Positions 39,771 to 52,916 of a stretch of 64,000 bases of DNA are shown piece by piece. Position 1 is the first letter of the stretch, and every line of letters starts with the position of its first letter. Source of the DNA: Mycolicibacterium goodii (lineage in GTDB: Bacteria; Actinomycetota; Actinomycetes; Mycobacteriales; Mycobacteriaceae); contig NZ_CP012150.1 of assembly GCF_001187505.1 (NCBI RefSeq), positions 4,930,046-4,994,045 on the forward strand, in the 5' to 3' direction. A program made the translations under genes and the position numbers. The notes beneath the pieces are model-generated. The model had not been told where the DNA came from. It worked only from the letters and a program-made list of their open reading frames with translations, and made no database searches.

Positions 39771-40171
39771 ACGAAGGTTTTCATCGCGTTGGGGGAGCAA
39801 TCCGCGTGCTGTAGCAAACTGCGCAGGCGCCGTACGTAGCTATCTGTCCCGTCTCAGTGAAGTTGTCACTCGCGACTTGTGAAGACGCCAACTGCACTGT
39901 GACGAAGGCCGGGGATGACGTCTCAAGTGATGTCATCACCTCCGTGTCGTCACCTCCGTAATTGCGGTTGAACGACTTTTTTCGCCCGACGTGACAGAGG
40001 TGGAGGGCGATACTTCGAGTGTCACATGATTCATCAGATGAACATCGCGAACGCTAACTTGACATAATGTAGCTTATCGGTAGAACGGGATAAGGGCTTG
40101 GAACGGCACACGGGATCCCGTAACGTACTCATCTTCGCCTTTGTGCGGAGTCGCCCCCAGGAGCGCTACAG
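39771..40171. other. Gene-free stretch with short repeats before the transposon
   Basis: About 400 bases without a supported gene. It contains the palindrome GTGATG-T-CATCAC (39927-39939), two copies of CACCTCCGT (39937-39945 and 39951-39959) and a CTGTGACGAA block near 39896. The block resembles the CAGTGACGAA found on both sides of the transposon. Purpose unknown; a recombination-site origin is possible. Confidence 0.4.
40059..40086 (+). promoter_or_regulatory. Sigma-A-like promoter upstream of the small Cys-rich ORF
   Basis: TTGACA (40059-40064), a 16-base spacer and TAGAAC (40081-40086). About 85 bases upstream of the ATG at 40172. Confidence 0.45.
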
Positions 40172-40339
40172 ATGCCCAACCATCATCCATCGCGTTCGTG
40201 GCGCGGGTGCGCCATGTGCAAGCCGCATAAGCGACGCGGCCGCGGACGGGCCGCCAAGGACCCGGCCGCGGTGCGCCGTCGCATCGGCCTCAAACGCCGT
40301 TACTCGCGCCGCACCGTTGTCGGCCGCGACGAACTCTGA
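40172..40339 (+). CDS. Small basic protein with WRGCxMCKPHK motif
   Basis: 55 residues starting MPNHHPSRSWRGCAMCKPHK, with AGGAG 8 bases before the ATG. The rest is very basic (KRRGRGRAAKDP, RIGLKRRYSRR). Tiny proteins with a WRGC-x2-C-K-P-x-K core recur next to transposases and genome islands in many bacteria. The CxxC and basic tail suggest zinc and nucleic-acid binding, but no function is known to me. It ends 215 bases before the transposon left end and is outside it. Confidence 0.6.
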   Translation: MPNHHPSRSWRGCAMCKPHKRRGRGRAAKDPAAVRRRIGLKRRYSRRTVVGRDEL

Positions 40340-40415: not shown

Positions 40416-40432
40416 CGTCACAGTGACGAAAT
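40416..40432. repeat. 17-bp direct repeat flanking the transposon, left copy
   Basis: CGTCACAGTGACGAAAT, identical to 52231-52247 on the other side of the element. The first 13 bases form a near-perfect palindrome (CGTCAC-A-GTGACG). Lies outside the transposon, so both copies belonged to the target before insertion, about 200 bp apart. Confidence 0.7.
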
Positions 40433-40549: not shown

Positions 40550-40554
40550 ACCAC
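40550..40554. repeat. Target site duplication, left (ACCAC)
   Basis: ACCAC directly before the transposon TGT end; repeated in the same orientation at 52163-52167. Five bases is the length produced by Tn7- and Tn5053-type transposition. Confidence 0.88.
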
Positions 40555-40631
40555 TGTCCGTTCTCGCGGATTTTGGGGCATTCTCATTGAATCTGGGGTA
40601 TCCGCGTGTCTTTCTCACTGCATCTGGGGCA
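40555..40631. repeat. Transposon left end with three transposase-binding-type repeats
   Basis: TGTCCG terminus followed by L1 (40561-40580, TTCTCGCGGATTTTGGGGCA), L2 (40581-40600, TTCTCATTGAATCTGGGGTA) and L3 (40612-40631, TTCTCACTGCATCTGGGGCA). L1 and L2 abut; L3 is 11 bases on and ends 19 bases before the tnsA-like start, so transposase binding could repress its own operon. Confidence 0.85.
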
Positions 40632-40650
40632 TTCGGCTTAACGTTTAATT

Positions 40651-41391
40651 GTGCTGACATCAGCGTTGTCGGCAGGGCCGGTTGTAGCGGGTGTTGTGGA
40701 CCTGGAGTTCGACACATTCGATGGACGTCTGCGCCGTTCATTAGACCGATGCGCTGCGGTCCGGTTTGAACTGGATTGCGCACCAGTGCGCAATTTCCCG
40801 TCTTTTCGCGGTCAACGAAACTTTCCCGGTCTGTGGTGGTTTGCCACCACGGGTGCGCACGTCGGTCACGAGTCATGGGTGGAACGTGATCAGCTGATGG
40901 CGCTGGATGCCGACCCAGATGTGGTTGGCGTGCTGTCGCAACCGTTTTGGTTCCACTGGCCCGACGGATCTCGACACGTGCCGGATTACTTCGTGCGTCA
41001 TCGAGATGGTTCTGCCGTGGTGGTTGATGTTCGTGAGGACGAGCGAATCTCGGAGGACGATCAGGAGGTGTTCGATCGGTCTGAGGCGGCTTGCGCAGCG
41101 GTTGGCTGGGGTTATCGCCGGGTCGGCGTACTGGATCCGGTGTTGCGCGCGAACCTGCGATGGTTGTCTGGCTATCGACACCCACGCGTTCTACGGATCG
41201 CTCTGGCTGACCAGCTGGCCGAGATATTCTCACGAGTCGGTCCGCTGATGGCGTGCGTGCGTGCAGTGGGTACTCCGCTGGTGGTGTTGCCGGTGCTGTT
41301 TCACCTGCTTTGGAAAGGGTGCTTGGTAGCCGATTTGCGTGGTGCGCTGCTCGCCGATGACACGCTGATCAGCCTCAGAGCTGGGTGGTGA
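40651..41391 (+). CDS. tnsA: TnsA-like endonuclease
   Basis: 246 residues. WVERDQLMALDADPDVVGVL, SQPFWFHWPDGSRHVPDYFV and VVVDVREDERI form the PD-(D/E)xK-type nuclease core of TnsA: a Glu, the Asp of VPDYF, then a D-x-R in the place of the usual Lys-containing motif. The Arg for Lys change appears in other actinobacterial TnsA-like proteins as I recall them, but activity is unproven. TnsA cuts the 5' strands so the element moves by cut-and-paste. GTG 40651 start; the TniA-like gene follows after 6 bases. Confidence 0.8.
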   Translation: MLTSALSAGPVVAGVVDLEFDTFDGRLRRSLDRCAAVRFELDCAPVRNFPSFRGQRNFPGLWWFATTGAHVGHESWVERDQLMALDADPDVVGVLSQPFWFHWPDGSRHVPDYFVRHRDGSAVVVDVREDERISEDDQEVFDRSEAACAAVGWGYRRVGVLDPVLRANLRWLSGYRHPRVLRIALADQLAEIFSRVGPLMACVRAVGTPLVVLPVLFHLLWKGCLVADLRGALLADDTLISLRAGW

Positions 41392-41397
41392 GCTGGC

Positions 41398-43473
41398 GTG
41401 CGAACGGGTGTGGTCCGCGAGGGAGACGAGATCCGTTTGTCATCAGGTGTTTTCACCGTTGTGACCTTGTCAGGTGGGTCGGTCCGGTTGGTCAACGCCG
41501 TCGGTGAGCACATCGTGGTGCCGGTGTCGCAGTTGTTGGTTGACCCTGCGTTGGCGTTGGTGTCAGGGTCGCGGCCACCGTTGTGTTCTGAGGAGATGTT
41601 GGCGGGAATCCCGGAAGCAGCGGTTGAGCTGGCGCGCTGGTGGGAGCGACATATCGTCGAGATCCTGACCGGCCGGCCGCCCGGGGCCGCTCCCGCTTCT
41701 CGACCCCGCCCGGAATATGACACGGCGAAACGATCTCTGCGCCAACGGGAGTTGGCCAAGCTGGACGAGTTGCGTGCCGCTGGCCATGAGGTGAGCCGGA
41801 ATGCATTGCAGCGTCGTCGTTACGCCTATGAGCGGGATGGGCTGTTGGGCGTCGTGGATGGGCGACACAATCGTCGCCGGCAGGTGTTCGGCCGAGTCGA
41901 CGAGCGTGTGGTCGCCGCGGTGCGTGACGCAATTGAGGGCGAGACCAACCTGTCGACGGGGACAGTGCAGCGCCTGCAGCGGCAAGTCGCGAAGTCGTTG
42001 GCGTGCGCGTACGGACCCGAGGATGCACCGGCGATGCCGTCTCAGCCGACGTTCTACCGACTGGTGAAGAGGCTCGCCGAGGGCCGGCATACGTTCGGGT
42101 CGGCGCGTACGCGGCGGTCGTTGTCCAAGCAGCCGGACGGCCCGTTCGGGTCGGTCACCGTGGTGCGGCCCGGGGAGATGGTGGAGATCGATTCGACGCC
42201 GTTGGATGTGCTGGTGGTTCTGGATAACGGTTTGGTGGACCGCGTCGAGTTGACCGGGATGGTCGACAACGCGACGCGTTCGATTCCGGCGGCGGTGTTG
42301 CGGCCGACGACCAAGGCGGTGGATGCGTCGTTGTTGCTAGCGCGGGCGTTGACTCCGGAGCCAATGCGTCCGGGATGGGCGGATGCGCTGCGGATGTCGC
42401 GGTCGGTATTGCCGCACCACAGTTTGACCAGCGTTGATCAGCGCCTGGCCGATGCCGCGGCGCGGCCGGTGATCGCTCCGGAGACGGTCGTGTGTGACCA
42501 CGGGAAAGCGTATCTGTCACAAACGTTTCGGCAGGCGTGCTGCACTCTCGGGATCAATCTGCAACCGGCTCATCCTGACTGCCCGACCGACAAACCGAAG
42601 GTAGAACGGACGCTGCAGTCTGTGAGCACCCTGTTCGCGCAGTATGTTGCCGGGTATGTGGGGTCGTCGGTGGAACGGCGCGGGAAGAACGCCGAGGACG
42701 ATGCAGTGTGGTCGATGATCGAACTTCAGGCGCTGCTGGACGAGTGGATCATCGCGGTGTGGCAGAACCGGCCTCACGACGGTCTGCGGGATCCGGTGAC
42801 GCCAGGGAAAGCGTTGACCCCCAACGAGAAATACGCTGCGCTGGTCGAAGTCGCCGGCTATGTGCCGGTCCCGCTGGGCGCCGACGATTACATTGAGCTG
42901 CTGCCGGTGGCGTGGCGGACCATTAACAGTTACGGGATCCGGATCAGCCATCGTACTTATGATGCCAAGGCGCTCAACCCCTACCGCCGCCAGCATTCCG
43001 GGGTCGATGCCCACAACGGACAGTGGGAGGTCCATTACGACCCTTATGACGTGTCGAGAATCTGGATACGCAATCACCACGACGATGGCTGGCTGTCCGC
43101 GACGTGGACGCACCTGCGCAGCGCCCCGGTGCCGTTCGGCGAGACGCTGTGGCGTCACGCACGCACTGTGGCTAACCGCACAGGCATCCAGAAGGCGCAG
43201 GAAGCCGAGATTGCAGCCATCGCCGAGGATCTGCTGGACCGAGTCGCCGCTGGCCCGCAGGGCCGAACGAAAGTGGAGCGACGGGTGACCGGACGGACCA
43301 ATGCTGCGAGCGCCGGCCGTGGCTGGTCCGGCGTGCCGGTGCCGCCGGCCGAGCACGATGCGTCGCCGAGCGACCAAACGGCCGACGACGCAGGCAGTGA
43401 AGACGTTGTAGCCGAGGTGATTCCTCTGCCGGTGTTCGATGCACGCAAGGAGGCCCAATCGTGGCGACTGTGA
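41398..43473 (+). CDS. tniA: TniA/TnsB-like DDE transposase
   Basis: 691 residues. N-terminal DNA-binding domains (to about 250) include helix-turn-helix segments such as LSTGTVQRLQRQVAK. The integrase catalytic core has Asp in MVEIDSTPLDV, Asp in VVCDHGKAYLS and Glu in DKPKVERTLQS, with exactly 35 residues between the last two (D-35-E). A Mu-type beta-barrel follows, and the C-terminal tail (about 620-691) is likely to contact the ATPase. Binds the 20-bp end repeats and joins 3' ends to target. GTG 41398 start. Its end overlaps the tniB-like start by 13 bases. Confidence 0.92.
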   Translation: MRTGVVREGDEIRLSSGVFTVVTLSGGSVRLVNAVGEHIVVPVSQLLVDPALALVSGSRPPLCSEEMLAGIPEAAVELARWWERHIVEILTGRPPGAAPASRPRPEYDTAKRSLRQRELAKLDELRAAGHEVSRNALQRRRYAYERDGLLGVVDGRHNRRRQVFGRVDERVVAAVRDAIEGETNLSTGTVQRLQRQVAKSLACAYGPEDAPAMPSQPTFYRLVKRLAEGRHTFGSARTRRSLSKQPDGPFGSVTVVRPGEMVEIDSTPLDVLVVLDNGLVDRVELTGMVDNATRSIPAAVLRPTTKAVDASLLLARALTPEPMRPGWADALRMSRSVLPHHSLTSVDQRLADAAARPVIAPETVVCDHGKAYLSQTFRQACCTLGINLQPAHPDCPTDKPKVERTLQSVSTLFAQYVAGYVGSSVERRGKNAEDDAVWSMIELQALLDEWIIAVWQNRPHDGLRDPVTPGKALTPNEKYAALVEVAGYVPVPLGADDYIELLPVAWRTINSYGIRISHRTYDAKALNPYRRQHSGVDAHNGQWEVHYDPYDVSRIWIRNHHDDGWLSATWTHLRSAPVPFGETLWRHARTVANRTGIQKAQEAEIAAIAEDLLDRVAAGPQGRTKVERRVTGRTNAASAGRGWSGVPVPPAEHDASPSDQTADDAGSEDVVAEVIPLPVFDARKEAQSWRL

Positions 43474-44496
43474 CCGAGCCGCAAACAGTGGCCGTGAACC
43501 AGTTGGAGGATCGCCGCCAGCCCACCACAACGTTGGAGGGCTGGCGGCGTTTCATTGAGGCCGATGCGCCCGAGTTCGAACTGTTCGACGATCTGACATG
43601 GTCGCAGTTGGACGACGATGCCCGGACCCGCTACAACGAGGCCCGCGTGGCGCATCACTCGGAGTTGGTGGTGGTCACGACATCAGCGATCGAATCGATC
43701 ACCCATCAGGGCCGACTGCTGACCCTGCTCAACCAGCGCGAGATTGGCGCGCGACGTGGCCTGATCATCTCCGGCGCTGCTGCGACCGGCAAGACCACCG
43801 CGATCAAACAGCTGGGCAGATTTCACGAACTACGCACCAGGGCACGGTTCCCCGGCGACGACAGCCGCATACCGGTGGTGTATGTGACCGCACCGCCGAA
43901 AGGGTCACCACGCAAACTGGCGATGGAGTTCGCCCGGTTTCTGGGCTTACCGATGCTCAACCCGCGGATGAACGTCACCGACATCTCCGATGCGGTGTGC
44001 CAAGTGCTCATCGACGCGCGAACCGACATCGTCGTGGTCGACGAGATTCCACAACCTCAACCTGGATACCCGCGCCGGGGAAGAATTGTCTGATCACCTG
44101 AAATACTTCACCGAACACCTGCCCGCGACGTTTGTGTATGCCGGGATCGACGTGGAGCGTTCGGGGCTGTTCACCGGCACCCGCGGACGCCAGCTCGCCG
44201 GCCGCTGTGGTGTCATCCACACCAGTGCGTTCCCGGACGCAAAAGAATGGCGTCAGCTCGTGGCGGCGATGGAGGGTACGTTGCGGCTGCACCGTCACAC
44301 ACCGGGAACCCTTGTGGCCGAGGCACGATACCTGCACCGCCGCACCGGCGGCATGATCGGCAGCCTTGCCCATCTGATCCGTGCCGCAGCCATCCAGGCC
44401 ATGCTGGATGGCACTGAACAGGTCTCGCGGGCGCTCATGGACACCGTGCTGATCGACTATGCCGCTCACACCGCCGCCGCCCGCACCGCCAGCTGA
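43461..44496 (+). CDS. tniB: TniB/TnsC-like AAA+ ATPase, one apparent frameshift
   Basis: About 345 codons in two frames. The first frame (GTG 43461) has Walker A LIISGAAATGKTTAIKQLG and Walker B DIVVVDEI. Right after DEI the sequence ATTCCACAAC holds one extra C near 44049; removing it restores DEIHNLNLDTRAGEELSDHL and the rest to 44496. The second part has sensor motifs TFVYAGIDVERSGLF and RRTGGMIGSLAHLIRAAA. TnsC-type ATPases select the target and activate TnsB. Because both parts are otherwise intact, an assembly error, a recent mutation or recoding are all possible. Confidence 0.85.
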
Positions 44497-44502
44497 ACCG
44501 GC

Positions 44503-45348
44503 ATGAATCCCAGACCATGGCCCCATGGACCACAACAGGCGCTGCCGCGCAGAGTGTGGCCGGTGCAGACCGAAACGGTGCATTCCTACACGATGCGACT
44601 GGCCCAGGCCAACCACCTACCCCTGAAGGTACTGCACACCTATCTGTCGGGCACAGCGGTCAGCAACCAGCCGCGGCCCGAATGGCTCGCAACTGCCAGC
44701 GGCTACCCCCTCGATCTGCTGGAAATTCGGCTCAAAGGCCTCACCCGAGGCCATGGTTTCGCCGAACAGCTGCGCCGATCACGGTCCGCATGCCGGTTGT
44801 GTATGGCGCGCCGTGGAATATATGAGCCGGTCTACTGCTGGCTGCCCGAACACCGCACTGTGTGTTTCCGCCATCGCCGATGGATCGGTGCACCAGCACG
44901 CCGGTGGGGCGATCAACGACCACTCGAACACCGCCCGGCAGTGCTCACAGCAGCACGCAGGCATGCGCGAATGGCCTACCAGCACAGGGAATTCGCTGCG
45001 TTCGCTATGCGTGATGCACGCCGAATCCTGAATTGCTGGTGGCGTGAAGGCCGCACCATCACACCCGTGCTGTCACTTCGAGAAATCACGGTGGAGGAAT
45101 ACCTCGACGCCTACAGCGATCACGTCGCCTTGGCTGTCATCCTTGCCGACTATCGGCCCCACATTGCCACGACGCATCCTCACAGCGGCCAACTCCTTGA
45201 CGCGCTTCACCGACGGATCGAGACCGAATTCCCCGATCGCTGCGGGAGCACCGGCGCCCTCGACCAATGGATATGCGACCAACGCCTGGCGATGCACCGA
45301 CCCGCGGGACCGATCACCAGATTGCTCGGACCACACCGCGGCTCCTGA
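44503..45348 (+). CDS. tniQ: TniQ family protein
   Basis: 281 residues. N-terminal TniQ signature LPRRVWPVQTETVHSYTMRL followed by LAQANHLPLKVL. Zinc-binding cysteines and histidines in SACRLCMARRGIYEPVYCWL and EHRTVCFRHRRW. TniQ/TnsD proteins direct Tn7-like elements to a target. Compared with TnsD (about 500 residues) this is short, nearer to TniQ of Tn5053-type elements that home to resolvase res sites. Six bases separate it from the tniB-like stop; last gene of the transposition operon. Confidence 0.85.
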   Translation: MNPRPWPHGPQQALPRRVWPVQTETVHSYTMRLAQANHLPLKVLHTYLSGTAVSNQPRPEWLATASGYPLDLLEIRLKGLTRGHGFAEQLRRSRSACRLCMARRGIYEPVYCWLPEHRTVCFRHRRWIGAPARRWGDQRPLEHRPAVLTAARRHARMAYQHREFAAFAMRDARRILNCWWREGRTITPVLSLREITVEEYLDAYSDHVALAVILADYRPHIATTHPHSGQLLDALHRRIETEFPDRCGSTGALDQWICDQRLAMHRPAGPITRLLGPHRGS

Positions 45349-45508
45349 CACCAACAGCTACTTGAAAGACGCCGGCCCCGTGTGTCGCAATTTTGTGTGA
45401 CTGCGAGTAGCGTTAAACATGTCGGTGTTCGGTCATGCAAATTGTCCATTCGGGTTTGGAGCATCGATCAATAGGTCGATTGGCTCGACCACAGATGGGA
45501 GCGTCCAC

Positions 45509-46096
45509 ATGACGCTACAAGCAGTGGAGAATTCGCAACGGGTGCACGGCCTGTCGTGTACTCCGAGATTGCGGTTGAAACCCAAGGCACCCCAAAGAGG
45601 CTATGTTGATGGGGCTTGGTGGCCGCGCAGCGATGACCTCAGCGCTGAGCTTCCCGAACTTCTAGCGGTCCTGTCCGTCAGGTTGGGACACGTCGAACGT
45701 GTACTCTACCGATTGTCTGACTGGCAGTCAGCGCCGCGAAAACTCGACGCTGGTTGCGGCCCGGTCAAGCTGGATGGATATGAGCGCCAACCTATCTCAA
45801 CCATCAGTCTGCTAGGGCCGGGATTCCGTCGACTCGATCTGCTGGTCATAGCTGTGTACGCGGACGCCTCCGACGCGCACGCGACCATGATGAGGGCCGC
45901 ACATCCAAGCGACGAGACGTGTGTGGACCGCCTTCTCGGGATCCAACCGCGCGTCCGAAACAGCTTGGACCGGGCCAGTATTGCCCAGCAGCGCTGGGAA
46001 TCAGAGATCTCCAAACCACGCAGTGCGTACCTGAATACCCATCCGGCGAAGGCTTCTGAACAAGACGCTGGCGATAACGCCAGGGATCGGACTTGA
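45509..46096 (+). CDS. DUF5994 family protein, free-standing copy
   Basis: 195 residues. The DUF5994 core TPRLRLKPKAPQRGYVDGAW, WPRSDDLSAELPELLAVLSV and KLDGYERQPIST is clear. A second, diverged copy forms the C-terminus of the fusion protein at 47753-49546 on the other strand. DUF5994 proteins are widespread in mycobacteria and often near stress genes; function unknown. ATG 45509 has GGGAG seven bases upstream; an in-frame start at 45419 is less likely. First cargo gene after tniQ; the gap 45349-45508 holds its promoter. Confidence 0.8.
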   Translation: MTLQAVENSQRVHGLSCTPRLRLKPKAPQRGYVDGAWWPRSDDLSAELPELLAVLSVRLGHVERVLYRLSDWQSAPRKLDAGCGPVKLDGYERQPISTISLLGPGFRRLDLLVIAVYADASDAHATMMRAAHPSDETCVDRLLGIQPRVRNSLDRASIAQQRWESEISKPRSAYLNTHPAKASEQDAGDNARDRT

Positions 46097-46098
46097 CC

Positions 46099-46302
46099 AT
46101 GACTGTACAAGTAACCCGCAACGACGGCCTCACTGATGAGTTTGCACGCTTCGGTGACCGCTACGTCAAGCACGCCGATGGGTCATTAGAGGTTATCCGT
46201 GCCGGAACAATGCAGCCCGCGACCTATCCGGCGGGGGGCTGGACCGAGGTGGCCGGAGACGAGAAGCGGAAGCCGCACGGTCTGTTTCATCGCCGCGCAT
46301 AG
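46099..46302 (+). CDS. Small hypothetical protein
   Basis: 67 residues (MTVQVTRNDGLTDEFARFGD then RYVKHADGSLEVI), ending HGLFHRRA before a TAG. ATG 46099 or TTG 46093 could start it; it directly follows the DUF5994 stop, so they are probably co-transcribed. No family recognised; composition looks like a genuine small soluble protein. Confidence 0.5.
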   Translation: MTVQVTRNDGLTDEFARFGDRYVKHADGSLEVIRAGTMQPATYPAGGWTEVAGDEKRKPHGLFHRRA

Positions 46303-46325
46303 TGCTCGCAGTTCATCAGGGGGTT

Positions 46326-46425
46326 ATGGACCTATACGACGATCCTTCAGCGTCTGGTCGAGGAGTACGCCGCTCAGCATCCCCAGGTGCTGCGCCGTAT
46401 TGGCGCGCGTGTACTTGGGAAATGA
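46326..46425 (+). pseudogene. Fragment of a small helical protein, frameshifted
   Basis: MDLYDD (from ATG 46326) then, one frame over, ILQRLVEEYAAQHPQVLRRI and GARVLGK to a TGA at 46423-46425. The second piece has clean amphipathic-helix character but no start codon in its own frame. Reads as a broken short ORF or an indel error. Confidence 0.35.
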
Positions 46426-47752
46426 GGATTGATGAAGGTCAGACGATGACTGGCCACGATGTCGGTGATGTGATCACTGGTCGATTCAGCCCAGCTGCTG
46501 CACTGCTGTGTCCGTAAAAGCGCTGTGCTGCAGCCAGCCGCGACGCAGATAACCGATGGGCCGGCGTCCGACTTCGCCGCCGAGCACGACTTTGCCGACT
46601 GCTGCCGCGACAACCGATTGGCACATCAACGCCGCTGCGACTGTCACGGCACTCACGGCGACGCTGTGTTGGCGAACGCGGGCGCACAGCGGCCATGCGG
46701 GTGGATCTAGACTTGATTCACAGGGCACGATTCCCCGGCCCCGCGGTGACACTCCGCATGGCCGGCGAGCTCTTTGAAGCTTCAGACAGCAGGCCGCCCC
46801 GAAACACTGACCAAGCCGGTCCCATGATCAGCTTCATCCTGCGCACCACTGTTGAATCGACCATCGCCCTCGACGCCCTGGTCAGCGCCGCGGTGATCGC
46901 CGCCATCAAACCTCACTCGACGACGGCCACTACACCGTCTGGTGAGCCGACGACTATCGCTGACGACCACCAGGATCCACACCTGCACTACGACGCGGAG
47001 CCCGGGCCCACCGATCACCACAGGCCCGGCGGCGTCGAGTTTCGTTTGCACCGCGACCGTTTCGGCCGCAGCACCACCGCCGAGCACCACCGCGATCAGC
47101 TGCTGTGGACAGGTTGGTGCGCACCTGGGCATCGCGCTGGCCGACCGCCACCAGCTCAGCGCCCACGTTGGCGATCCCGACCTGGACGCCACCGTTCAAC
47201 GCAGCTGAGCACCGACGACCGACAGCCAACAAAGGCCCGATCGGAAGCTACCGCTCACACGCTGACGCGGACCAGGCACTGAGTGAGTGTCCCGGCACGC
47301 CCAGTATGCCCTGCTCGGATAGCCGGTCCCGCATGAAGTCCGTCGTTAGACGTCACCGAAAGGTGGCCTCGGGTTAAACAGTCAGCACGATTTCTGTGAC
47401 GTCGCACCGTGCATGGGGGCCACACCATTGAAGTGAAGGCTTGGCCACCGACGTCGACATGGATGTCACGCAATACAACGGCGAAGTCTTTTTCGAACAC
47501 TGCGGCCACCGGCACGGCAACAAAACCGCGCTGCGATTCGGACTCCGGCATCTTGAAGATCAAAATGGTCACCGTTCAGGTCAACGGCAACGAGATGGCG
47601 TGGGTCTGTGAGAACTTCTTCGACACCCCAACCAAATGCCCGAATATGTTGGGGCGGGCGACGATCCACACGCCCACCCACTTAAAAACCGCGAAGACCC
47701 CAGAGGGAGCGTGCCCTCCCGCGGATGCGGATCCGCAGTGGAAGTTTCGGTG
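46426..47752. other. Low-confidence cargo stretch without a convincing gene
   Basis: About 1.3 kb inside the transposon. Several open frames of 60-196 codons occur on both strands (for example + 46695-47282 and - 47255-47572). None shows a recognisable domain, good ribosome-binding site and codon bias together. It lies between the two inverted DUF5994 copies and may be degraded cargo. Confidence 0.4.
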
Positions 47753-49546
47753 TCAGCCGGGCAGCTGCGCCAACCGTGGGGAAGCCGTAGTTCCGCCTTC
47801 TGATTCCCAGCATTCTTGAGCAGTCGATGCCTCGGTGCGTATGTCACGGTCTCGTTGGCTAATCATGAGAAGTCCGTCGACGGTCGCGGCGTTGTGGGGT
47901 TGCGCCGCGGTCATCATGGTGCGGTGTGCGTCGTGGGCATCAGTGTGGGACGGAACCACCAGTAGCGTGAGCCGGTCACCGTCGAGCCCGAGAACTTCGA
48001 TGGTGTTGATCGGCTGAAGGCGATATCCGTCCAGGCGTACCGTCCGTCCTCCGGTGGTGAGCTTTCGCGGCGCTTTGACCCATGCATTCAGGTGATAAAG
48101 CACTCGGTCGATGCGGCCCAGTCGTACCGAGAGCACGGCCAACAGGTCTGGCAGCTCTACGCTGAGATCTTCGCTGCGGGGCCACCACGCCCCGTCAACA
48201 TAGCCGCTTTGAGGTGCTTTGGGCTTTAACCGCAGGCGCGGCGTGCGCGCCGGAACGATGGAGCGCTGATCATTTCTGCGTGTCTGCTGTGGCGTCATAC
48301 TGACGCTCCCATCTGAACCACGTAATGCGGCCCTGTCCTTCAAATCAGTGATGACACACTCAAAATGGTCGCGTGTTCGAAATACCACTGATAGTGGTGA
48401 TCCTACCCCGTTACTCTGGCTTGCCAACGCACCGCGGGCGCCGGGCGCGACGTCTGAGGTCTCAGCGATGAGGTGATCCACGACGTCGAGCAGGCTGTTG
48501 CGCATGCGCATGACGCGGCGCTGCCGGGCCGCCGAACTGCCCTGCGCCAGAGCCTTGCGCGCCAACTCCTCAACGGGATGCCAGTCGCCGGATGCCTCCA
48601 GCTGTGGGCGCAGCATCTGGACCAAGTCGGTAACCACATCGCACGCGGGGCGACTCGCCGGATGTATCAAGTCCACCAGGTCGCCTTCCAGCCCTGACCG
48701 GGCGGCTCGCCACAGCGCGGCACGGCCGAGCGGGGGCACCACTATGGCGGCAGGCACGCCGGCGCGTAGTCCCTCGATTTCGCGTTCGACGAGCGCGCGG
48801 AATAGCGCCGCGATGAGCACGATGGTGTCGGCGCGTGGACAGCTATCGCACACGCGCAGCTCCAAGGTGGGGGTTCGTAGGGCGGGGCGAACGTCAAAAT
48901 ATGACATCCCCGCATCGGTGATCGCTCCGGTCGCAATCAGATTGGAGATCAAGGTGTCGTACTCCGCGGCTGACGTGGCCGGAGGCGCCAGACCGGTGGT
49001 CGGCCATCGCTGCCATACCAATGTGCGGACGCTGCTGTAGCCGGTGTCAGATCCGTCGGACCAGAATGGCGAACTCGCGCTCAACGCAAGCAGAGTGGGA
49101 ATATAGGCGGCCACTCTGCCGGCCACTAGGACAGACTCATCACGGTCGTCGATTCCAATATGAATCTGGGTCCCGCAGATTAGTTGTTCGCGTGCCAACA
49201 GCTGATAGTCCGCAAGCATCTTTTGATACCGGGAAGTCTGGGTCACGTGCATCTCGCTGGGCACCGACAATGGAACCGCGCCTGCGGCAACCACGCCCAA
49301 CCTGAGAGTGGCGGCGGTATCGACGAGGACTCGACGTCGTGCTGTCAGATCAGCCCGCAGTTCCGGAAGCGTACTGACCACACTGCCGTTGGTCTCCACG
49401 ACACAACTCTGCAATTCGGCCACATAACCGTCAGGCAGCAGTGATAGCAGCTCTGGTGCCCGCGGTGCCAGCCGCCGGGTGGTGAGGTCGACAAGGTGGA
49501 ATTCTTCCTCTATGCCGACCGTCCTGGGCGTCTTGGATGCTGTCAC
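47753..49546 (-). CDS. Glutamate-cysteine ligase type 2 (YbdK-like) fused to DUF5994
   Basis: 597 residues. Residues 1 to about 380 form a carboxylate-amine ligase of the GCS2 family: TVGIEEEFHLVD (metal-binding Glu), SCVVETNGSVVSTLPELRADL, LICGTQIHIGIDDRDE and TPTLELRVCDSCPRADT. After a linker, residues from about 430 to 590 are a DUF5994 domain with TPRLRLKPKAPQSGYVDGAW. The linker contains MTPQQTRRNDQRS, which looks like the N-terminus of a formerly separate DUF5994 protein, so the fusion may have arisen by loss of a stop codon. The ligase would make a gamma-glutamyl amide; the substrate is unknown. The start overlaps the stop of the small membrane-protein gene. Confidence 0.85.
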   Translation of the reverse strand: MTASKTPRTVGIEEEFHLVDLTTRRLAPRAPELLSLLPDGYVAELQSCVVETNGSVVSTLPELRADLTARRRVLVDTAATLRLGVVAAGAVPLSVPSEMHVTQTSRYQKMLADYQLLAREQLICGTQIHIGIDDRDESVLVAGRVAAYIPTLLALSASSPFWSDGSDTGYSSVRTLVWQRWPTTGLAPPATSAAEYDTLISNLIATGAITDAGMSYFDVRPALRTPTLELRVCDSCPRADTIVLIAALFRALVEREIEGLRAGVPAAIVVPPLGRAALWRAARSGLEGDLVDLIHPASRPACDVVTDLVQMLRPQLEASGDWHPVEELARKALAQGSSAARQRRVMRMRNSLLDVVDHLIAETSDVAPGARGALASQSNGVGSPLSVVFRTRDHFECVITDLKDRAALRGSDGSVSMTPQQTRRNDQRSIVPARTPRLRLKPKAPQSGYVDGAWWPRSEDLSVELPDLLAVLSVRLGRIDRVLYHLNAWVKAPRKLTTGGRTVRLDGYRLQPINTIEVLGLDGDRLTLLVVPSHTDAHDAHRTMMTAAQPHNAATVDGLLMISQRDRDIRTEASTAQECWESEGGTTASPRLAQLPG

Positions 49547-49944
49547 TTGTCTTGGCGTTCGTTGTGATCGGTATTGACGTGCTCATGGGGCGCCTGTCGG
49601 AAACTGTCCCTGGTGTCCGCTCGGTCCCATTGGGTCGTCGAGCTGTTCAAGGGGGTCCGGCGCCGCGTTGCGGCGGCCCCCGTGCCATTGAGACAGGCCC
49701 GATGTTGGGGTCGCCCAGATGTCGGCTTCTGACCGTGCGCAGTGATGCGGTCGGAAGCCTCGTCAGCCCACGCCTCGCGCTGCCGAAATCGCGGTGGGTC
49801 CTGGTTGACGGGTTGGTGGGTGTTGTCGGGTGCCGCAGGGCGAACTTTGTCGTGTCTGTTGCCCGCTACCCACGCGAAGATAGCGATGGGCACGGTCGTC
49901 GCGAACACCACGAGAACGACGAAAGTGATACTGCTGGTGGACAT
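49543..49944 (-). CDS. Small single-pass membrane protein
   Basis: 133 residues: MSTSSITFVVLVVFATTVPI then AIFAWVAG is one N-terminal transmembrane helix (about 5-28), followed by a hydrophilic, Arg/Asp-rich tail of about 100 residues with low conservation. The start is supported by AAAGGAG upstream (reverse strand). Its stop overlaps the ligase-DUF5994 start (ATGA), so the two are co-translated; it could anchor or regulate the ligase. No family recognised. Confidence 0.6.
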   Translation of the reverse strand: MSTSSITFVVLVVFATTVPIAIFAWVAGNRHDKVRPAAPDNTHQPVNQDPPRFRQREAWADEASDRITAHGQKPTSGRPQHRACLNGTGAAATRRRTPLNSSTTQWDRADTRDSFRQAPHEHVNTDHNERQDK

Positions 49945-50112
49945 ATCGGCTCCTTTTCATTGATAAAGCATGAGTTATGTACGCAGCGTGACTATTTGGC
50001 CGGCACCATCTCGCAGCTGACCAGTCTCGAAGTGGTAGCGCTCGACTGTCGAGGCACAGGACCCGAAAAAGGCCGTCGACTCAATGCCGTCGGCCACGCA
50101 ACCACGCGCCAG

Positions 50113-50294
50113 TCAGCAGTAGTGACGCCGGCCGCCGATGGCGTGACCCGTCCGCCCCATAAGCATCACAAGCAGGCCCACGACCAGCACGATGACCCCG
50201 ATGACCAAAACGAAATGGGCGAACGCGAATGCGGGGGGGCGAGGCTCGCGAGGAGCAGCCCCAAAACAACAAGGACAACTCCGAGGATCATCAT
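50113..50294 (-). pseudogene. DUF6131-like small membrane protein, frameshift in a C7 run
   Basis: Begins MMILGVVLVVLGLLLASLAP and then, in the next frame, continues FAHFVLVIGVIVLVVGLLVM and MGRTGHAIGGRRHYC to the stop. Two hydrophobic helices and the GGRRHYx end are typical of DUF6131 proteins of mycobacteria. The break is at a run of seven C (seven G on the + strand, near 50235); eight would restore the frame. A true slippage variant or a homopolymer error. Confidence 0.6.
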
Positions 50295-50343
50295 GGCCAG
50301 TTACCTAGTTTCGTGCAGATGACCGGGGTTGGTGTGCCCGGGA

Positions 50344-50517
50344 TCAGTGTTTGAAGGCGTCTTTGAGCTTGTCGCCTGCCTGTCTTGTGTTGCCTTTGAC
50401 CTGGCCGACGCGCCCCTCGGCCCGCAGGCCGGTGTTGCCGGTGGCGCGGCCGAAGACTTTCTTCACACTGCCCTTGGTGGCTTCGAACTTGTGGGCAATC
50501 TTTTCAACGACTCTCAT
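50344..50517 (-). CDS. CsbD family stress protein
   Basis: 57 residues: MRVVEKIAHKFEATKGSVKK, VFGRATGNTGLRAEGRVGQV and KGNTRQAGDKLKDAFKH. This is the CsbD pattern of a short, highly charged, helical protein with AEG and QxxG spacing. CsbD proteins are induced by general stress in Bacillus (sigma-B) and many actinobacteria; molecular role unknown. AAGGAG precedes the ATG at 50517. Confidence 0.82.
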   Translation of the reverse strand: MRVVEKIAHKFEATKGSVKKVFGRATGNTGLRAEGRVGQVKGNTRQAGDKLKDAFKH

Positions 50518-50541
50518 CGCGGACTCCTTAGTTCTCGGTGT

Positions 50542-50829
50542 TCATGGCCCACGATCGCGGGATGAAGACATGGGGCGAGGCTGGTTGCCGGGAGAGTCAA
50601 CCACCTCTCCAGTTCGTGGCGGGCAGCTGACAACACGCTCAAGCCGAGCGTCGAAATGCGCCAACAAAAATCCGAGGAGGACCGATGCGCGTCGGCCCAG
50701 CTGATGCGATAGCCGAATCCGAAGCGATTCGCCGACGATAGCCCCAGTGGACCCCGCGATTGTCAGCACCCCGGTGAACCCCAAGACCGCCGCGGCGAAC
50801 ACGACGACCGATCCAACGATGACGATCAT
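50542..50829 (-). CDS. Small membrane protein, possibly frameshifted
   Basis: 95 residues; MIVIVGSVVVFAAAVLGFTG continuing to VLTIAGSTGAIVGES forms one or two hydrophobic helices. From about residue 36 the reading frame loses membrane character. The next frame reads FGFGYRISWADAHRS and later LGLSVLSAARHELERW, which resembles the second helix end of small two-helix mycobacterial membrane proteins. A single-base indel near 50715 is therefore suspected. No function assigned. Confidence 0.4.
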   Translation of the reverse strand: MIVIVGSVVVFAAAVLGFTGVLTIAGSTGAIVGESLRIRLSHQLGRRASVLLGFLLAHFDARLERVVSCPPRTGEVVDSPGNQPRPMSSSRDRGP

Positions 50830-50891
50830 GGCGGCGCCTCTACTGATGCTTAGAAATCCAGTACACGCCCCACCACAAACTTTGTCAACAG

Positions 50892-50903
50892 CGTAGGTCT
50901 ACG
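50892..50903. promoter_or_regulatory. TetR-type operator A
   Basis: CGTAGGTCTACG: perfect CGTAG/CTACG arms around GT, in the divergent gap between the small membrane gene (start 50829) and the TetR gene (start 51005). Confidence 0.6.
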
Positions 50904-50961
50904 GCATAGAACTACCGTGTGGACGGTCGGGCTTGCGGCTTCGCGATTGCGATGTCTACAG

Positions 50962-50973
50962 CGTAGGACTACA
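50962..50973. promoter_or_regulatory. TetR-type operator B
   Basis: CGTAGGACTACA, within a longer match ACAGCGTAGGNCTAC shared with operator A 70 bases away. Directly upstream of the TetR start. Confidence 0.6.
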
Positions 50974-51004
50974 GTGCAGACATGCGCGGAAGTCTGCACT
51001 GTCC

Positions 51005-51772
51005 ATGATGCAACCCCGAGTGGGTCCATCAACTCCCGCGCCCGACACCCGCAACGTCGTCGGTGAGAGTAGGCTGATCACCCGCGCGGCAGTCCTGGCC
51101 TGCGCCCTGGAAATCATCGACCGCGACGGTGTCGATGGGCTCTCGATGCGGCGGCTCGGCGAGGCAGTCGGACGCGACCCCATGGCTCTGTATCGGCATG
51201 TGCCGAACAAGGCTGCGGTGCTCGACGGCGTCGTCGAGATGGTCTTCGCACAGCTTTCGCTGGACACGACAACGCCAGACTGGGCCGCTGCGCTGCGCAA
51301 GCTCGCCCACGAGTTCCGCGACTTGGCGCGCGCACACCCCAACGTCGTTCCGTTGTTGGCCACCCGTCCGCTGGCCACACCGCTTGGGATGCGCCCACCA
51401 GGAATCCTGCGGCACCTCGAAGATGTCCTCACCCTGCTCATCGCTGCCGGGTTCAACGGAGCAGACGCGGTGCACGTCTACCGAGCATTGTTCGGGTTCC
51501 TCTACGGGCACGTACTCACCGAACTACAGGAAATCGTCGAGCGGCCCGAGGAAACCGACCACGTCCTGCGGCTGGGGCTGCACCGATTGCCGATCGACCA
51601 ATTTCGGCACCTCCGTGAACTCGCACCAACCTGGGCGTCCTACGACGGACTAGCCGAGCTCGACCGCGGACTCGACATTCTGCTCAGCGGACTGGCCGCG
51701 CGACTCGCGGTCCCCGGCACCCCTCACGCGCACACCACCCAACCTCCACAGGACGACTACAGACGGACCTAA
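51005..51772 (+). CDS. TetR-family regulator with Tet-repressor-type C-terminal domain
   Basis: 255 residues. N-terminal helix-turn-helix: LITRAAVLACALEIIDRDGV then LSMRRLGEAVGRDPMALYRH. The C-terminal part (FRDLARAHPNVVPLLATRP, FLYGHVLTELQE) is of the TetR_C type that binds small ligands and Mg. ATG 51005 is chosen (51008 possible). Two matching operators upstream imply autoregulation and control of the leftward stress genes. Last cargo gene before the right end. Confidence 0.87.
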   Translation: MMQPRVGPSTPAPDTRNVVGESRLITRAAVLACALEIIDRDGVDGLSMRRLGEAVGRDPMALYRHVPNKAAVLDGVVEMVFAQLSLDTTTPDWAAALRKLAHEFRDLARAHPNVVPLLATRPLATPLGMRPPGILRHLEDVLTLLIAAGFNGADAVHVYRALFGFLYGHVLTELQEIVERPEETDHVLRLGLHRLPIDQFRHLRELAPTWASYDGLAELDRGLDILLSGLAARLAVPGTPHAHTTQPPQDDYRRT

Positions 51773-52059
51773 TCCCGATGCCGCGCCAACGGGCGCACCG
51801 GGATTCAATGCCGCCTCGACATCGCGGCACGGCTCATGACCGCCACCAGCCCAAGCGGGTCCGCCTGGGCCACTGGGAACCGCCGCGCTGGCCACCGCGA
51901 AAAGCATCGAAGTCACACATGGAACTCGCCGACAACATCTTCCCGGTCAGTGGGATTGGATGAACGGCCCGGAAATACTGGGAGTGTGGCCTGGCCGACG
52001 GCTCCTCACAGTGGCAACACGCCTTGCCAAGCAGGTCGTGTCACTGTCCCGAGGCCAGT
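51773..52059. other. Non-coding stretch before the transposon right end
   Basis: About 290 bases with no supported gene. Near 51965-51984 GGCCCGGAAATACTGGGAG weakly resembles a degenerate end repeat. Confidence 0.4.
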
Positions 52060-52162
52060 TGCCCCAAATACTATGAGAACCGGACGCACCGAAATTCTCA
52101 CCCAATCTGGGGCACCACAGGTCAGGCAATATCACATGCCCCAATTTCAATGAGAACGGACA
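52060..52162. repeat. Transposon right end with three transposase-binding-type repeats
   Basis: Terminal TGTCCG (reverse strand, 52157-52162) then R1 (52137-52156, reverse TTCTCATTGAAATTGGGGCA). R3 is at 52060-52079 (reverse TTCTCATAGTATTTGGGGCA). R2, TTCTCACCCAATCTGGGGCA at 52095-52114, lies in the opposite orientation to the other two. This asymmetry with the left end is a Tn7-family trait, although inverted internal copies are unusual. Confidence 0.82.
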
Positions 52163-52167
52163 ACCAC
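52163..52167. repeat. Target site duplication, right (ACCAC)
   Basis: ACCAC directly after the terminal ACA, identical to 40550-40554. Confidence 0.88.
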
Positions 52168-52230
52168 GCGATGAACATCGCATCAGCTCGCCCCCACAAC
52201 CGATCCCACTCGCAGCGCATGCGACCATTG

Positions 52231-52247
52231 CGTCACAGTGACGAAAT
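52231..52247. repeat. 17-bp direct repeat flanking the transposon, right copy
   Basis: CGTCACAGTGACGAAAT, identical to 40416-40432 and also outside the element. No gene is supported in 52168-52298. Confidence 0.7.
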
Positions 52248-52298
52248 TTCCTGTGCTGCAGCTGCTCTGAACCTGACGACAAAACGCCACCCCTTGCG

Positions 52299-52916
52299 TC
52301 AGCGATGGCCCCTGCGAGCGCTCTCACCGAAATTCGTTGCCAGCGGCAGAAATATGTCATCAACGATTTCGGTGATGGTCTCGGCCGGCACCGATGTCAT
52401 CGTCATCAATAGTTCGTGCCGCAGGAGGTCGGTCGGCAGTGCCACGATGCGGGCCGGCGGCATCGTGGCAAGCTCACCGCGGCTGATCGCCCGCTGCACG
52501 ATGATCTCCATCCCGCTGGGCCCATCGGGAACGAACAGGGCGCGAAGTTGCTGCGGCGACCCCTCCGCCTCGTTGAAGTAAGCCCCCAACCGTGCGGCGA
52601 TGAGGCCGATGGTGCGAGACCGGCGGTTGTTGAACTCGGTGAGGACGGCCAGCACATCACCACGCAGGGTTCCCGCATCCGGTATCGGAATCTGGTCGAT
52701 TTCACCGCGGTGCCGGATCACCGCTTTCAGCAGGTCCATCCTGGAGGGCCAGCGCCGGTACAGCACCGACCTGGCCGAGCCCGATCGGGTTGCCACCGCG
52801 TCGATGTTGAAGGCCTCGTAGCCACATTCGGTGAGTTGATCCCACCCCGCCTCCAGGATCGCCGACTCCAGCGCGGAACCACGACGCCGCTGTCCGCTCG
52901 AACCTTTAGAGGACAC
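52299..52916 (-). CDS. TetR/AcrR-family regulator
   Basis: 205 residues. Helix-turn-helix in ALESAILEAGWDQLTECGYE and IDAVATRSGSARSVLYRRWP (about 15-60); the C-terminal half is a TetR_C_11/ligand-binding type domain. It is divergent from the FAD monooxygenase and DHA2 transporter genes (gap 52917-53054), the classic layout of a repressor controlling a detoxification pair. Confidence 0.88.
   Translation of the reverse strand: MSSKGSSGQRRRGSALESAILEAGWDQLTECGYEAFNIDAVATRSGSARSVLYRRWPSRMDLLKAVIRHRGEIDQIPIPDAGTLRGDVLAVLTEFNNRRSRTIGLIAARLGAYFNEAEGSPQQLRALFVPDGPSGMEIIVQRAISRGELATMPPARIVALPTDLLRHELLMTMTSVPAETITEIVDDIFLPLATNFGESARRGHR

Follow-up and report, generated by a model that had tools for sequence, protein, structure and literature searches.

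What decides where a Tn7-like transposon settles in a mycobacterial chromosome? The question is raised by a 64,000-nucleotide stretch of Mycolicibacterium goodii DNA (assembly GCF_001187505.1, contig NZ_CP012150.1, positions 4,930,046 to 4,994,045 of the forward strand; hereafter, the window), in which such an element lies 474 bp from the chromosomal dif site. The place of insertion is the most interesting property of this transposon, and the first-pass annotation of the window had passed over it. Our comparison of related sequences makes it very probable that it is an actinobacterial cut-and-paste element of the TnsA-TniA-TniB-TniQ type, whose mycobacterial clade would home to a 13-bp palindrome, P1 (CGTCACAGTGACG; in its general form, CGTCACNGTGACG), mostly from 40-100 bp away and with the TnsA end toward P1. 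The argument turns on the following features (those given without a sign have no strand):

40030..40042: second palindrome, P2, TTCATCAGATGAA; 14 bp from dif, flank common to several relatives
40057..40080, + strand: chromosomal dif, core ACTTGACATAATGTAGCTTATCGG; the only match in the genome, with no mismatch
40416..40428: P1 left, CGTCACAGTGACG; centre 133 bp outside the left end
40550..40554: target duplication ACCAC, left copy (sequence reading)
40555..52162, + strand: Tn7-like transposon, 11,608 bp, TGTCCG...CGGACA (sequence reading; a search for target-site duplications gave the same ends)
52163..52167: target duplication ACCAC, right copy (sequence reading)
52231..52243: P1 right, CGTCACAGTGACG; centre 74 bp outside the right end

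P1 and the placing of the insertions

The loci compared were 20 related stretches taken from the best TnsA matches (at least 61% identity) and the best 80 of 313 TniA relatives. Among them, 40 loci of the window's clade had a recognisable left end and, once five duplicates were removed, gave 35 distinct insertions, chosen by the similarity of TnsA or TniA and not by P1. We left out loci with no left end by pattern (L172, L079, L080 and L082), those starting within about 1.3 kb of TniA (L154, L156, L160, L162, L166, L169, L170, L176 and L177), the contig-edge locus L083 and all loci outside mycobacteria. In 24 of the 35 insertions, P1 with at most one mismatch (exact in 21) was present in the 250 bp beyond the left (TnsA) end, compared to 14 of 2753 control windows from the same loci (Fisher p 5e-41, related loci not being fully independent). 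The distance from the P1 centre to the left end ranged from 21 to 236 bp, with 20 of the 24 falling between 42 and 100 bp. This association is found both at the chromosome terminus and away from it: nine P1-positive insertions have no dif in the examined stretch (L063, L064, L066, L068, L069, L071, L072, L167 and L184), two of them being named plasmids, and L068, L069 and L066 are 55, 147 and 181 kb from dif, respectively.

The order of events is visible in one sister case. A sister element on the Mycobacterium intracellulare subsp. chimaera plasmid NZ_CP015279.1 is flanked by the duplication GAAGT and has P1 at -61. Plasmid NZ_CP015268.1, from the same subspecies, carries the empty site: both 400-bp flanks are there with no mismatch and overlap by exactly five bases, leaving a single copy of the 5-bp repeat, and P1 is already present at -61. 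Hence, P1 precedes the insertion, and insertion makes the 5-bp duplication. Regarding the insertion in the window, the searches turned up no relative in which its two flanks adjoin. Its right flank (52168-52900) matches 59 of 198 genomes of the genus, the strongest matches beginning about 155-173 bp into the query, and its left flank matches mostly an FAA-hydrolase gene and the dif region.

P1 belongs to the host. In 25 of 30 dif loci of the genus it lies, with at most one mismatch, 238-345 bp from the dif centre, on the same side every time (the other five being L122, L123, L126, L133 and L149), and it also occurs near dif where a genome has no TnsA match. The 89,542 bases of these dif loci hold 46 such sites and none of the reversed motif. 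In 30 complete genomes, chosen because their dif is known, the exact 13-mer occurs 75 times and a control 8 times; of the 74 chromosomal sites, 31 come within 700 bp of dif, and such a site is present in 25 of the 30 genomes. Besides, P1 follows the parB stop codon by 16-40 bp in at least nine of these genomes (L276-L282, L255 and L260), the identity of ParB having been checked by Pfam in two of the cases. The sites have A/T-rich flanks, and their core, TCAC-N-GTGA, resembles parS with one base added. In M. goodii, the two copies beside the element are the only exact ones in the 7.1-Mb genome, in a search limited to A/T centres. When the insert is removed arithmetically, they fall about 354 and 556 bp from dif, comparable to the pairs at L134 (329 and 558 bp) and L150 (314 and 554 bp).

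P1 is conserved near dif whether or not a genome carries the element, so a host factor probably reads it. Tentatively, and with a little less than even confidence, we suggest that P1 is an undescribed mycobacterial chromosome landmark beside dif and just after parB, read by a dedicated segregation or organisation protein. Tn7-like transposons would use that protein (in other lineages, the dif complex) as a homing beacon leading to safe chromosome and plasmid sites. Among the literature matches listed, we found no description of P1 in mycobacteria.

Several observations weigh against a clade homing to P1. In eleven of the 35 insertions, the 250 bp beyond the left end contain no P1 (L067, L081, L084, L158, L163, L168, L171, L175, L178, L181 and L186). 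The spacerless core TCACGTGA, present in 6 of 2826 controls, is found in two of these (L084 and L171) and also in L069 and in L274, which is a prophage copy; L163 has P1 70 bp outside its right end. With L084, L171 and L163 set aside, eight remain. The distance to P1 varies more than it does for Tn7 or for CRISPR-associated transposons (CASTs), and in L070 and L165 it is the right end, not the left, that is nearer to dif. In the window itself, the left distance (133 bp) falls towards the upper limit of the range and the right one (74 bp) well inside it; because there is a P1 on both sides, it cannot be told which one this copy used, and the orientation rule is ambiguous here. Finally, we know of no P1-binding protein.

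What the transposon may recognise

By analogy with Tn7, TniQ would select the site and call TniB/TnsC and TnsA-TniA to the adjoining DNA, so that insertion would mostly take place at the distance and in the orientation given above. Because TniQ is a short core lacking a TnsD-like extension, we think that it would more likely recognise P1 through a bound host protein, in the way that Tn5053-family elements recognise a resolvase on res, than as bare DNA. P1 being rare and near dif in most genomes examined, chromosomal copies would pile up at the terminus, and the P1 copies of plasmids would give the same transposon a route to travel.

Direct binding of TniQ to bare P1, with no host protein, is possible, at clearly less than even likelihood. 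P1 is short, symmetric and operator-like, with its A/T-rich flanks, and TniQ has both a zinc-binding pattern and a C-terminal helical part. On the other side, its 281 residues are about the size of the common TniQ core, as described in a passage of PMC10293859, and it is without the long extension by which TnsD binds its site; the conservation of P1 in genomes with and without the element also points to a host factor as its reader.

We consider it improbable that the machinery senses a DNA shape, such as a palindrome hairpin or cruciform, and neither the sequence nor a bound protein. TnsC of Tn7 can respond to distorted DNA, and at two insertions without dif, L064 (on a plasmid) and L068, P1 sits in a perfect palindrome with 18-base arms. 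Yet the perfect arms are of only 6 bases in 52 of the 67 distinct P1 sites with flanks, and the letters CGTCAC/GTGACG are common to insertion sites whose outer arms differ.

Another candidate target is dif. Chromosome termini lie opposite dnaA, and the dif of the window is 21 kb from that point of the 7.1-Mb chromosome. Its sequence agrees with the Frankia alni dif printed in an excerpt of PMC3025954. Searched with a spacer of 5 N and at most two mismatches, the dif pattern was present in 188 of the 198 genus genomes, usually as a single copy, and the reversed control had no match; when 23 genomes with TnsA matches and no listed dif were searched again, 20 gave a dif match. TnsA-like matches numbered 114, in 71 of the 198 genomes. 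The first-pass annotation had spoken of few examples in mycobacteria, a remark that is not supported by these counts, in which the family is common, nor by the existence of an NCBIfam model for the actinobacterial TnsA-like subunit. Of the 114 matches, 55 share a contig with a listed dif: 19 of these come within 1.2 kb of it and 22 come within 2.3 kb, all 22 with the TnsA end toward dif, and another 19 are more than 60 kb away.

A second set of elements, on the other side of dif from the window's clade, is closer still. The gap from dif to the left end is 38 (L269), 45 (L265), 47 (L266), 48 (L264), 48 (L267) and 52 bp (L268) in six genomes of the genus, and 49 bp in Arthrobacter hankyongi (L211), 50 bp in Nocardioides (L200), 51 bp in Kribbella (L187) and 69 bp in another Arthrobacter (L222). 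The left ends of L211 and L269 were taken from sequence alone, without a matching right end. Where found, the duplications differ from one another (CCTGC, ACCGG, GCAGT, CCGGT, CTCGT, ACTGC, TCCAC and GCGCC). Ten loci were fetched for their nearness to dif, so that only their tight gap counts as evidence; in four of the ten (L270-L273) it was not seen. Outside mycobacteria, dif (at most four mismatches) was within 1.6 kb upstream of TniA in 4 of 37 loci, with L202 as one further out, and P1 was near the left end in none of the 37; the Streptomyces loci had neither dif nor P1 near the left end. In the TniA tree, ten rows with P1 fall within one supported mycobacterial clade of 12 rows. The dif-adjacent elements do not form one clade; the tree implies five changes, at least four of them forced, with a long-branch warning for L268. 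L079 and L178 gave the same values in the related-locus comparison and in this tree.

Even so, it is a shade more improbable than a response to DNA shape that dif, bound by XerC/XerD or FtsK, is the target of the whole family and P1 a bystander. The second set, at 38-69 bp from dif, speaks for it, and IS1202-family insertion sequences are named dif site hunters in a part of PMC10132070. In the window's clade, by contrast, the distance to dif is 184-1902 bp where dif is upstream, while that to P1 is mostly 42-100 bp, and nine P1-positive insertions have no dif in the examined stretch. The least probable reading, that the terminus is merely permissive and gene-poor and that P1 is nearby only because it is beside dif, draws on the 19 of 55 matches within 1.2 kb of dif and on the 238-345 bp spacing in 25 of 30 dif loci, by which P1 and dif are confounded on chromosomes, but P1 accompanies plasmid copies and copies 55-181 kb from dif, all 22 matches within 2.3 kb face dif with the same end, and the second set keeps a 45-52 bp gap in 8 of 10 insertions.

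These observations matter in several ways. Part of the actinobacterial Tn7-like clade gains two concrete, testable attachment sites. The transposon also points to a conserved palindrome close to dif and to parB, which may be a site of chromosome segregation. Besides, a transposon that homes near a terminus shared by many species would serve as an insertion tool.

The element, its genes and its relatives

The first-pass annotation had described a Tn7-like element whose ends and 5-bp duplication are intact, and the ends, the TnsB-type sites and the gene profiles bear it out. On rereading, TGTCCG begins at 40555, CGGACA finishes at 52162 and ACCAC stands on both sides; the terminal 27 bp are identical between the ends at 22 positions, counted by eye. 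The repeated 20-bp sites were also recovered: on both strands of the window, six 20-mers have at most six mismatches to TTCTCATTGAATCTGGGGCA, and all six are in the ends of the element, three in each.

40561..40580, + strand: TnsB-type site L1, 5 mismatches to TTCTCATTGAATCTGGGGCA
40581..40600, + strand: TnsB-type site L2, 1 mismatch
40612..40631, + strand: TnsB-type site L3, 2 mismatches
52060..52079, - strand: TnsB-type site, right end, 3 mismatches
52095..52114, + strand: TnsB-type site, right end, opposite orientation, 3 mismatches
52137..52156, - strand: terminal TnsB-type site, right end, 2 mismatches

Counted from the left duplication, the first 101 bp have a single occurrence in the genome, and TnsA and TniA have one match each. 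There is no tRNA and no Rfam match in the window. A 55-aa open reading frame at 40172-40339 was dropped as a candidate attachment gene, with matches in only 26 of the 198 genus genomes; it is arginine-rich, lies beside dif and has no Pfam match. The genes of the element are:

40651..41391, + strand: TnsA-like endonuclease gene (NCBIfam NF033179, E 7e-88)
41398..43473, + strand: TniA/TnsB DDE transposase gene (Mu-transpos_C above cut-off, rve under cut-off)
43461..44093, + strand: tniB (AAA+ ATPase), first piece (Pfam TniB, E 4e-12; AAA_22)
43990..44496, + strand: tniB, second piece, in another frame (weak PADLOC TnsC match, E 0.02; one frame in relatives)
44503..45348, + strand: TniQ target-selector gene, 281 aa, zinc-binding pattern C97 C100 C121 H124 (PADLOC, 7e-7)
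45419..46096, + strand: cargo, DUF5994 protein (Pfam)
47753..49546, - strand: cargo, GCS2-type carboxylate-amine ligase running into a DUF5994 domain (Pfam, NCBIfam)
50933..51772, + strand: cargo, TetR-family regulator (Pfam)

TniA gave a profile match to a solved TnsB (E 1e-18), and its residues D265, D367 and E403 are invariant in alignment A1. For TniQ, the Pfam TniQ match (0.002) is under its cut-off. The predicted model has a fold match to a solved TniQ, with TniQ structures at ranks 1-3 and E 0.1-0.5; Foldseek alone gave no match in the PDB at E 0.001, and the C-terminal half of the model gave no convincing fold match.

The transposon had been called complete, with four collinear genes for TnsA, TniA, TniB and TniQ. 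Its outline supports this (ends, duplication and gene set, all four genes being present by profile matches), but tniB is divided between two frames, with an N-terminal piece at 43461-44093 and a C-terminal piece at 43990-44496, a split that the annotation had not noted. Both pieces were found in 21 related loci: in 17 of them they abut in one unbroken frame, and the other four (L066, L072, L080 and L082) have breaks of their own. To judge by its sequence, the copy in the window may no longer be mobile by its own genes, and probably is not, because tniB is split; the split itself may be a sequencing error and, if it is real, this copy would need TniB from elsewhere. Several relatives carry other breaks in tniA or tniB, and intact copies occur in relatives.

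Of the relatives found, L065 is nearest: it carries the same genes along with related cargo, at identities of 88% for TnsA, 96% for TniA, 98 and 97% for the TniB pieces, 95% for TniQ and 84% for the ligase. A Mycobacterium porcinum contig (L155) shows the same insertion flank as L065. Cargo of the window type (DUF5994, ligase and TetR) is also present at about 87% DNA identity on a Mycobacterium branderi plasmid (L062, 9061-14115); the 28 annotated features shown for it include no transposition gene of this family. At L067 (G102:C1:2492341-2503119), a dif-like site with 2 mismatches is on one side of the element copy and the chromosomal dif on the other. A related element of 9,726 bp, with duplication ATGAG, adjoins the lysin A gene in the Mycobacterium abscessus prophage prophiGD05-1 (L274), near the spacerless CGTCACGTGACG. 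Finally, four equal weak Bac_DnaA matches, in 274-aa frames (G000:C1 1839022, 2302045, 5432500 and 7105394), suggest a repeated ATPase gene, which may belong to an insertion sequence.

Comparison with known systems

Among the literature matches listed, none described P1 beside dif as a transposon target. The element shares TniQ and TnsC with CASTs, for which insertion about 50-60 bp from the target is given in an excerpt of PMC8649781. No Cas protein was present among the ten proteins scanned, with no specific search for CRISPR arrays.

The IS1202 family, the dif site hunters of Acinetobacter, is alike in its TnsB-like transposase, its TGT/ACA ends and, in the Acinetobacter group, its 5-bp target-site duplications and its one-orientation insertion beside dif or pdif, according to a part of PMC10132070. 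As set out there, its members are 1.5-kb insertion sequences with the transposase only, inserted 5 bp from the XerC site; the window element, unlike them, has four transposition genes and cargo, lies 474 bp from dif and belongs to a clade associated with P1 rather than dif.

With the Tn5053/Tn402 family, the res site hunters, it has in common a single TniQ and a target tied to a DNA-resolution site, as described in a section of PMC11406308. That family lacks TnsA, has its own resolvase and targets plasmid res sites, whereas the window element has TnsA, no resolvase was found among the ten proteins scanned, and its target would be P1/dif.

The actinobacterial Tn7-like clade is called experimentally uncharacterised in an excerpt of PMC8649781. 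The window element is closest to Tn7 and its relatives: it has the same gene set and order (TnsA-like, TnsB/TniA, TnsC/TniB, here split, and TniQ/TnsD), TGT...ACA ends with several TnsB sites in each, and the 5-bp duplication. It also shares insertion at a distance from the recognised site with a fixed end toward it, as seen in 24 of the 35 insertions, the window copy being ambiguous. The target of Tn7 is a gene such as glmS. The window's clade differs in targeting, very probably, P1 beside dif, in its short TniQ and in the less exact distance at which it inserts.
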